Program-made: the position numbers and the translations under genes | Notes under the pieces: model-generated | Seen by the model: the letters and a program-made list of their open reading frames with translations, nothing else | Told to the model about the DNA's origin: nothing | The model's database searches: none | In this document: positions 7,207 through 9,888 of the stretch, in pieces | Layout of the letters: the number at the start of each line of letters is the position of its first letter | Position numbering within the stretch: position 1 is the first letter of the stretch | NCBI GenBank assembly: GCA_012522185.1 | Contig: JAAYKY010000041.1 | Location: 1 to 64,000 of the forward strand | Origin: Flavobacteriaceae bacterium | Lineage (GTDB): Bacteria > Bacteroidota > Bacteroidia > Flavobacteriales > Weeksellaceae | Length of the DNA: 64,000 nt | Direction: 5' to 3'

Positions 7207-7219
7207 AATTATATAGACT

Positions 7220-7774
7220 ATCGCAATAAGAAGAAAAGGTGGGGGACGCCGTCCCGCACGAGTGATCAAAGAAGATCAGCACAAGATTAATCAGAAAATC
7301 ACCGTTCCCGAAGTTCGGGTGGTTGGTGAGGGCATTGAGCCCGGAATTTATCCGATTGCCAAAGCTTTGCAGATGGCAGAGGATGCAGGTTTGGATTTGG
7401 TAATGATTACCGAAAAAGCGGTTCCACCAGTGTGTCGTATTGTGGATTATAAAAAATTCCTCTACGAACAGAAAAAGAAGGAAAAGGAACTGAAAGCCAA
7501 GCAGCAAAAGGTTACGATTAAAGAAATTCGATTTGGACCTCAAACAGACGATCATGATTACGAATTCAAAAAGCGTCATGCAAGAAGTTTTCTGGAAGAA
7601 GGTTCCAAATTGAAAGCCTATGTGTTTTTCAAGGGTAGATCGATTATATTTAAAGACCAAGGCGAAATTCTATTGTTGAAACTCGCTCAGGAATTGGAAG
7701 ATGTAGGCAAAGTGGAACAACTCCCAAAATTAGAAGGAAAGCGGATGATCATGATGATGGCTCCGAAAAAATAA
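7220..7774 (+). CDS. infC: Translation initiation factor IF-3, ATC start
   Basis: IF-3 binds the 30S subunit and discriminates against non-standard start codons. The protein has the N-terminal domain ([23 protein letters not shown]), the Lys-rich linker with [13 protein letters not shown], and the C-terminal domain ([17 protein letters not shown]). An in-frame TAG at 7214-7216 bounds the gene. The first usable triplet is ATC at 7220, giving (M)[18 protein letters not shown], which matches the MAIR.. basic N terminus I recall for flavobacterial IF-3. Starting at GTG 7262 would remove that basic segment. Rare AUU/AUC starts in infC are known to allow IF-3 to repress its own synthesis. It follows thrS by 13 bases. 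Confidence 0.93.
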
Positions 7775-8580: not shown

Positions 8581-8610
8581 AAATCCCGCCCGAAAGAGCG
8601 GGATTTTTTT
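8581..8610 (+). terminator. Intrinsic terminator of the thrS-rplT operon
   Basis: AAATCCCGC (8581-8589) pairs with GCGGGATTT (8599-8607) around a CCGAAAGA-type loop, followed by an unbroken T-run to 8610. It begins 23 bases after the rplT stop. Confidence 0.9.
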
Positions 8611-8620
8611 GAATTCTATA

Positions 8621-8716
8621 AGATTATAATCCATTAATTATATAAAATCAATAGATTACAATCCATTAATTACATAAAAATAGTAGATTATAATCTGGGT
8701 TTTTATACTTTAGCGG
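8621..8716 (+). promoter_or_regulatory. Three palindromes repeated at exactly 32 bp before an AAA ATPase gene
   Basis: The palindrome GATTATAATC occurs at 8622-8631 and 8686-8695, with a one-base variant GATTACAATC at 8654-8663; each starts exactly 32 bp after the previous one, about three helical turns. The first two 32-bp units also share most of their flanks (CCATTAATTA.ATAAAA), whereas the third runs into the promoter-like TATACTTTAG at 8705-8714 just before the ATG at 8728. Same-face spacing of dyad sites suggests a cooperative operator. Confidence 0.6.
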
Positions 8717-8727
8717 AAAGTCAAGGC

Positions 8728-9855
8728 ATGAGCATTCAAAGGAAATTAAGGAATCATCTCATATCCAAATGGGATTCCGGGAAAGTAATTTTGGTAACAG
8801 GTCCGCGGCAAGTAGGGAAAACTACTTTGATTCATTCGCTATGCAGAGAAAAGGGAAACTATCTGTTTTTGAATGGAGATGATCCGGAGGACAGAGTTTT
8901 ACTGGAAGATGCTGGAGAGAAAAAACTTCGACAAATCATCGGAGATCATACAGGAATTTTTATAGATGAAGCACAGCGCATCAAAAACATTGGAATTTTA
9001 CTTAAAATTATTCATGATCGAATTGACAATGTTAGCGTGCTGGCGAGTGGCTCTTCGGTGATTGGCTTAAATGAGGAAATAAATGAACCTTTAACCGGCA
9101 GGAAATGCGAATTTAATTTGTTCCCTTTTAGTTGGGAAGAAATGAATCAACATTTTGGGTATTTAGAAAATCAAAAAAACCTTTCATCTTATTTGATTTA
9201 CGGAATGTATCCGGAGGTCATAACGCATCCCAATGAAAAGGAAGACATCCTGAAAGAATTGAGCAAAAGTTATTTGTATAAAGATTTATTACAACATAAA
9301 GGGATTAGAAAACCGGAACTATTAGATAAAATTTTACTCGCTTTGGCTTTGCAGGTTGGGCAAGAAGTCAACTATAATGAATTGGCAAATTTAGTGCGTG
9401 CAGATCGTTCTACAGTAGAAGAATACATTTCTCTTTTGGAAAAAACCTATGTCATTTTCCGTTTACTTCCACTGAGCCGAAACATTCGGAATGAAATCAG
9501 CACTTCACGTAAAATTTATTTCTATGACAATGGAATTCGAAATGCAATCATAGGAGATTTCAAACCCCTTGAATTTCGGCAAGATATCGAGGCATTATGG
9601 GAGAACTTCATGGTTTCGGAGCGAATAAAGAAATTGCGATACGATGATTGGTCCGGAAGATATTATTTCTGGCGGACCTATCAGCAACAGGAAATTGACT
9701 GGATCGAAGAGTCGGATTCCAAATTCAATGCTTTTGAATTCAAATGGAATCCAAAAAAAGGGAAATCAAAATTTTCGAAGACCTTTTTGGCTAATTATCC
9801 GGTAGAATTGACTTCTGTTATTTCACCCAAAAACTTAGATGAATTTTTGCTGTAA
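8728..9855 (+). CDS. AAA+ ATPase with DUF4143 C-terminal domain
   Basis: A 375-residue protein of the AAA_14/DUF4143 type. Walker A GPRQVGKT is at 25-32, Walker B IFIDEAQ at 77-83, a sensor-like LASGSS at 105-110 and the Arg of LTGRKCEF follows. From about residue 200 it has a winged-helix-like part (NYNELANLVRADRSTVEEYI) and then the DUF4143 nuclease-like region with FYDNGIRNAI, EALWENFM and YYFWRTYQQQEIDWI, ending with an FEFKWNP Glu-x-Lys motif. The role of these ATPases is unclear; they are common, strain-variable genes. It is a single-gene unit behind the 32-bp palindromes. Autoregulation is my inference. Confidence 0.88.
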   Translation: MSIQRKLRNHLISKWDSGKVILVTGPRQVGKTTLIHSLCREKGNYLFLNGDDPEDRVLLEDAGEKKLRQIIGDHTGIFIDEAQRIKNIGILLKIIHDRIDNVSVLASGSSVIGLNEEINEPLTGRKCEFNLFPFSWEEMNQHFGYLENQKNLSSYLIYGMYPEVITHPNEKEDILKELSKSYLYKDLLQHKGIRKPELLDKILLALALQVGQEVNYNELANLVRADRSTVEEYISLLEKTYVIFRLLPLSRNIRNEISTSRKIYFYDNGIRNAIIGDFKPLEFRQDIEALWENFMVSERIKKLRYDDWSGRYYFWRTYQQQEIDWIEESDSKFNAFEFKWNPKKGKSKFSKTFLANYPVELTSVISPKNLDEFLL

Positions 9856-9857
9856 TC

Positions 9858-9888
9858 AACCTAACAGGGTTTAAAACACTGTTAGGTT
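9858..9888. terminator. Hairpin between convergent genes
   Basis: AACCTAACAG (9858-9867) pairs perfectly with CTGTTAGGTT (9879-9888) around an 11-base AT-rich loop. It sits between the stops of two convergent genes, as expected for a bidirectional terminator, but the following T-run is short. The same AACCTAACAGG-type sequence is, from memory, a frequent intergenic element in this phylum. Confidence 0.5.

Follow-up and report, generated by a model that had tools for sequence, protein, structure and literature searches.

The window analysed here is a stretch of 64,000 nucleotides from a Flavobacteriaceae bacterium (assembly GCA_012522185.1, contig JAAYKY010000041.1). An array of short palindromes is located in it at 8621–8696, between the terminator of the ribosomal protein L20 gene and a gene encoding an ATPase of the AAA_14/DUF4143 type. 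On comparison of the protein and array sequences, this array is probably a dedicated operator (probability about 0.86): the encoded protein would bind it and autoregulate its own gene, most likely as a repressor. Residues 226, 228 and 227 of the protein are shown by computation to covary with operator bases 5, 6 and 7. The array architecture is a family-wide trait, in which the period and the half-site frame are conserved and the letters are not. The features of the array and the gene are as follows.

8621–8652, no strand: array unit 1, with the dyad GATTATAATC at 8622–8631
8653–8684, no strand: array unit 2, with the imperfect dyad GATTACAATC at 8654–8663
8685–8696, no strand: partial array unit 3, with the dyad GATTATAATC at 8686–8695
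8707–8714, + strand: putative promoter -7 box TACTTTAG, one mismatch to TAnnTTTG (read from the sequence)
8728–9855, + strand: AAA_14/DUF4143 ATPase-nuclease gene, 375 amino acids, PADLOC PDC-S01
9313–9465, + strand: winged-helix domain codons, about residues 196–246 (AlphaFold secondary structure)
9403–9411, + strand: codons of D226, R227 and S228, covarying with operator bases 5, 7 and 6
9697–9744, + strand: codons 324–339, with the PD-(D/E)XK-like residues D324, E337 and K339 (invariant in 80 sequences; catalytic assignment by inspection)

The array in the window

The dyads start at 8622, 8654 and 8686, a spacing of exactly 32 bp. Three phased dyads had been proposed in a sequence-only reading of this DNA, and the phasing stands: the self-match at offset 32 scores 28, whereas 2000 rounds of dinucleotide shuffling of these 200 bp reach 16 at most. 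The middle dyad is imperfect: sites 1 and 3 are GATTATAATC and site 2 is GATTACAATC. Over their 32 bp, unit 1 has 84% identity to unit 2, and Tandem Repeats Finder reports 8621–8695 with a period of 32, 2.3 copies and a score of 115, the maximum for the window. The complete array doubles as an imperfect inverted repeat, with arms at 8621–8657 and 8660–8696 and a complementarity of 78%.

A search across the source genome found no second copy of the array, which is single-copy. The occurrence of the same repeats at many unrelated loci, which the sequence-only reading had set against its own proposal, is therefore not seen. Identification as a multi-copy repetitive extragenic palindromic-like repeat was rejected because the array is unique in the genome, and as an array of the clustered regularly interspaced short palindromic repeats (CRISPR) type because the whole 32-bp unit repeats at 84%, without spacers. 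The dyad GATTATAATC by itself is present at 11 places in the genome: two in the array, eight in open reading frames of at least 80 amino acids and one in an intergenic spacer. The location of the nine non-array sites indicates that there is no regulon, and GATTATAATC was rejected as a genome-wide regulatory motif on the same grounds.

Arrays across the family

Homologues from other genera also have direct repeats upstream, as do paralogues within the source genome, which has eight DUF4143 genes. Most of these repeats have a period of 32 and a different sequence; in one locus from another genus (L033), GATTATAATC-like dyads again occur at 32 bp. The family set consists of the best 80 of at least 570 relatives in named genomes plus two from viral contigs, 82 in all. 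For each gene the best self-match offset was determined in the 200 bp upstream, with significance taken as p ≤ 0.01. A significant repeat is present in 45 of the 82, at offset 32 in 35 and at 33 in four; regardless of p, the best offset is 32 in 46 and 33 in six (52/82). Among 209 other genes of the same loci, used as a control, 17 reached p ≤ 0.01 and the best offset was 32 in three and 33 in three (6/209). The sole control upstream region significant at offset 32 is itself that of a second DUF4143 gene. Downstream of the family genes, 8 out of 79 regions were significant, three of them at 32: one is the array of a second DUF4143 gene (L138), and two are copies of the gene's own array after the stop codon (L092 and L168). 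In a later set, the best offset was 32 or 33 in 43 out of 51, 36 of these at p ≤ 0.01.

A search for GATTATAATC among relatives, the check suggested in the sequence-only reading, would mostly fail, as the array letters are different at almost every gene. Distant DUF4143 genes have arrays of 22, 23 or 33 bp, and in the distant loci of the second set 7 out of 15 were significant, with a best offset of 32 or 33 in four. Genes on plasmids gave periods of 32 bp in a Treponema isolate (p 0.003), 23 in Asticcacaulis (0.007) and 46 in Rhizobium (0.003); the other 11 of the 14 plasmid genes sampled had no array at p ≤ 0.01. Arrays of 22–23 bp, or multiples of this, were observed upstream in six distant loci (L029, L047, L059, L171, L276 and L281), corresponding to two helical turns, not three. 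Locus L138 (4357–5485) contains a tandem pair of DUF4143 genes, each with a 32-bp array.

Half-site structure and promoter register

Phasing was determined in 96 loci (four of 100 were omitted: L171, L026, L055 and L058), of which 67 have an array score of at least 10. In these 67 the half-site, from the dyad outward, is T1 A2 w3 T4 C5, variable bases 6–8, then A9–A11, that is T-A-w-T-C-[6][7][8]-AAA. Bases 6–8 are conserved within a locus (mean 0.76–0.79) and different between loci. A second, weaker dyad is often found 16 bp on.

The promoter -7 box has the consensus TAnnTTTG. Of the 67 array loci, 49 have an exact TAnnTTTG, and the copy closest to the start codon is phase-locked to the dyads (mean 3.7 mod 16, R 0.78); when boxes were swapped between loci as a control, R was at most 0.43 in 5000. 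The centre of the putative -7 box in the window lies 20 bp past the last dyad centre, in a register that matches the family phase.

The residue-to-base code

Covariation was assessed in 55 of the 67 array loci, 12 having been excluded because they matched the common half-site poorly or the protein was short. Half-site letters (bases 3 and 5–8) were compared with each column of the protein alignment, about 370 columns. The three best columns were S228 (z 17.6, base 6), D226 (8.4, base 5) and R227 (7.8 for base 8 and 7.7 for base 7). In the pooled code of 98 loci, D at residue 226 is associated with C (0.92 of 68 loci) and S with G (0.90 of 15). Likewise, at residue 228 N is associated with A (0.91 of 34), K with C (0.87 of 19) and E with G (0.88 of 8), and at residue 227 K is associated with C at base 7 (0.83 of 51).

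The frozen code was then applied to unseen loci. A further 69 loci were collected, using 296 genomes of the phylum in addition to the earlier genomes; 68 gave a reading frame and 43 passed the filters for close family, array score of at least 10 and less than 90% identity to the first set. Accuracy, calculated only for loci with a residue seen in training (42, 39, 40 and 40 for bases 5, 6, 7 and 8), was 0.86 for base 5 (majority 0.50), 0.85 for base 6 (0.46) and 0.72 for base 7 (0.60). None of 5000 permutations was as good for bases 5–7. Relatedness was controlled with 49 disjoint nearest pairs, over which 305 columns were ranked. Pairs that share the residue also share the base in 38/38 (226), 25/28 (228) and 26/31 (227) cases; for pairs that differ in the residue, agreement falls to 2/11, 3/21 and 7/18. 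D226 comes first of the 305 columns for base 5 (Fisher p 2.7e-8), S228 for base 6 (1.4e-7) and R227 for base 7 (0.0019). The earlier suggestion that the array may be bound by the ATPase itself is strengthened by this, as the recognition helix covaries with the array, also on unseen loci; physical binding is predicted from the sequences. Among paralogues, 1 of 45 within-genome pairs shares a residue triplet versus 2.74 expected, which is not significant (P 0.27) and gives no ground for calling the paralogues orthogonal.

Several observations weigh against an operator read by its own protein, or narrow the reading. The sequence-only reading had named homologues lacking any array as evidence against itself: most close homologues do have one, but 37 of the best 82 relatives have no significant array. 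The cut of the training set (55/67 arrays) favours D226 types, and in the first set S228 outscores R227 at base 7 (z 8.3 versus 7.7). The clade marker Q28 rivals D226 for base 5 in pooled z score; it is absent from the six best columns listed for the matched pairs. Base 8 was not predicted in the 43 unseen loci (0.40 versus a majority of 0.42) nor in the matched pairs (p 0.14), and was rejected as a member of the code for these failures. Within the first set S228 is found in the window alone, so the window's base 6 (T) is no test of the code; only D226 with C is. The window half-site is TAATCTAT with D-R-S, and L109, the closest sampled relative (66% identity), has D-R-A with CAATCTTA. Phase-locking to the -7 box is less tight over the 23 loci of the second set (R 0.41 mod 16, and 0.58 mod 32 with mean 21), and the window itself has no exact TAnnTTTG.

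The encoded protein

The protein matches Pfam AAA_14 (PF13173) with 136.5 bits versus a curated cut-off of 28.1, and DUF4143 (PF13635), spanning residues 185–341, with 96.5 bits versus 27. The Pfam scan identified AAA-type and DUF4143 families only, with no replication, Rep initiator or recombinase domain and no C-terminal repeat sensor family (LRR, TPR or WD40). The PADLOC model PDLC04789 (PDC-S01) matches end to end, over residues 1–374 (E 2.4e-158). Residues D324, E337 and K339 are invariant across 80 sequences, which fits an ATPase fused to a PD-(D/E)XK domain, and form a putative PD-(D/E)XK-like catalytic motif.

The AlphaFold model has a mean predicted local distance difference test score of 93.8, and places residues 226–228 at the start of a helix, 227–239, that in this model is the recognition helix of a winged-helix fold. 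Searches of solved structures by sequence gave weak AAA matches only. The top structural matches to residues 1–276 are PABY2304 (2qen; Z 17.3, root mean square deviation 3.3, 253 aligned) and SSO1545 (2fna; Z 16.6, 3.3, 255 aligned), with which identity is 17–20%; 7dfv matches with Z 15.0 in VIA-align, a structure list that is a second look at Foldseek's own ranking. Origin initiators are also among the structural matches. SSO1545 and PABY2304 are presumably STAND-type ATPases. As modelled, residues 1–276 are similar in fold to STAND-type ATPases of archaea and to the cores of NLRs, with an AAA-type core followed by a winged helix. Since Pfam finds no C-terminal repeat sensor, the window protein is not filed as a typical STAND protein. 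The STAND winged helix usually serves the nucleotide switch; the fold is alike here, and in the window family it is the winged helix that appears to carry DNA specificity.

Apparent mobility of the array and gene

Judging from the flanking sequences, the array seems to move together with the gene, the two forming a single mobile cassette, or insertion unit. The limits in the window are the following.

8581–8606, + strand: terminator of the upstream L20 gene (terminator scan; L20 by Pfam), after which the cassette starts
9858–9888, no strand: palindrome AACCTAACAGGG...CACTGTTAGGTT 3' of the gene, probable terminator (read from the sequence)

The cassette ends at the palindrome 9858–9888 or before 9902, comparing congeners by eye. 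In three congeners (G002, G003 and G005), also compared by eye, a thioredoxin-like gene comes immediately after the L20 terminator, with no array and no ATPase gene. A second empty site, for L204, is present in genome G366, where the left flank (1–417) and right flank (1808–2319) match one continuous stretch with an overlap of about 104 bp and 80–83% identity. It follows that the insert consists of the array, the gene and short ends. Direct duplications of 16–246 bp flank the cassette at 33 out of 148 loci, versus 3 out of 79 control genes. The array-less empty sites and these duplications bear out the earlier idea that the array travels with its gene. An empty site for L183 was sought in three genomes of its genus, giving 70% identity on one flank only and no clean site.

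In 6 out of 148 loci (L091, L092, L152, L153, L168 and L193) the duplicated stretch is the array itself, 63–70 bp or about two units. The second copy is located at or just after the stop codon, so that the gene is bracketed by direct copies. Homing into pre-existing arrays is unsupported, as empty sites are seen without an array, though these six loci have arrays on both sides.

The array copies of L152 are identical in 70/70 positions and overlap the stop codon. In L204 (query 317–373, in the genus of G249) a palindrome, AGACCTGnCAGGT..., lies within the duplicated target; it has short matches on both strands in many places in the genus and is a dispersed terminator-like repeat. The window palindrome 9858–9888 resembles in form the palindromes within duplicated targets at other loci.

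Proposed regulation and alternative explanations

Each 32-bp unit spans three turns of DNA and has one dyad. The winged helix, at about residues 196–246, would set the start of the recognition helix in the groove, with residue 226 reading base 5, 228 base 6 and 227 base 7. Physical binding is suggested by the covariation and its prediction, and cooperativity by the 32-bp phasing. Several copies of the protein may bind in a row along the same face of the DNA, covering the -7 box and its vicinity, and the position of the array over the promoter makes it most likely that they shut the gene off, rather than activate it. The state of ATP, or a signal, would then release the bound copies. As the array seems to move with the gene, each mobile copy would bring its own matched switch.

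Binding chiefly for replication, excision or insertion, in the manner of an iteron or a transposon end and with regulation as a by-product, is unlikely. In its favour, the array is on both sides of the gene in 6/148 loci in copies of 63–70 bp, the cassette seems mobile given the direct duplications at 33/148, nuclease-type residues are invariant in 80 sequences, and origin initiators are among the structural matches. However, most loci have a single array, which precedes the gene at its promoter and keeps register with the -7 box, empty sites occur without any array, and Pfam finds no replication or recombinase domain. It is quite improbable that the bound protein activates its own promoter. 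The last dyad lies about 20 bp before the centre of the -7 box, over the -33 region, and in L090, L101, L107, L120 and L151 units extend through the promoter to the start codon, which suits blocking; most units nevertheless lie ahead of the -7 box, a position that activators use as well.

That another co-inherited or host regulator reads the array in place of the ATPase is very improbable. The STAND-like fold, with a winged helix that would usually serve the nucleotide switch, is consistent with it, yet the specificity letters track ATPase residues 226–228, also out of sample and in matched pairs, and the inserted stretch of the window has one gene. A functionless AT-rich tandem repeat, made by chance or slippage, would be short and of few copies, as this one is at 2.3; it can scarcely be credited in light of the shuffles, the control genes, a period that is kept with changed letters and the residue-to-base code. 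Beyond the preferred reading of an autoregulatory operator, it is conceivable, if doubtful, that the defence-labelled family consists of single-gene mobile units held on their own arrays. The 226–228 code, simple and portable, would re-address the protein, and the array would act as a self-address or end in movement, as the array-gene-array loci might suggest.

Comparison with known systems

PDC-S01, an ATPase with a PD-(D/E)XK domain, is described in the available text of its source as the fourth most common prokaryotic defence, with 29,494 counted in Bacteria and 9,986 in Archaea, and validation is pending for most such candidates (PMC12988326). The same text, as far as available, does not mention operators, arrays or sequence-specific DNA reading for PDC-S01 (PMC12988326). 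The window protein matches the profile at full length, and an anti-phage role is a candidate label. In the open-licence literature nothing was found that links ATPases of this family to operators, to repeats or to a recognition code. In the portions of that literature available, DUF4143 appears as a table entry in a Thermus Argonaute study, and the mentions of COG1373 are incidental as listed.

Iterons are direct repeats at whole helical turns, upstream of the gene for a winged-helix Rep protein that reads them. The arrays are like plasmid iterons in being direct repeats upstream of the gene of their reader, the reading here being indicated by covariation, and the 22–23 bp periods of the distant DUF4143 genes are likened to iteron repeats at whole helical turns. 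They are unlike them in that the window protein has no Pfam Rep domain, the period in the close family is 32 and there is no evidence of replication. C proteins autoregulate restriction-modification units, which insert with long target duplication, reportedly as described by Nobusato and colleagues in 2000. Both are mobile units with a nuclease and an operator of their own, and both have long direct duplications where they insert. They differ in that the window cassette is a single gene with no methyltransferase and the ATPase-nuclease would itself read the operator.

Tens of thousands of genes of this family carry a defence-candidate label only. A self-read operator with a predictive code would be a first testable biochemical property for the family. 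The code lets much of each protein's DNA target be written from the protein sequence, and the matched promoter points to possible ways of inducing or silencing the gene. There is also a caution: a unit that moves and regulates itself could be mistaken for defence because it is found among mobile genes. A three-residue winged-helix code would also help research on DNA-binding proteins.

Neighbouring genes

Elsewhere in the window, the frame at 7210–7774 is probably infC, going by gene order. This frame extends upstream of its first GTG, at 7262, with no ATG, and may therefore start at a rare codon.
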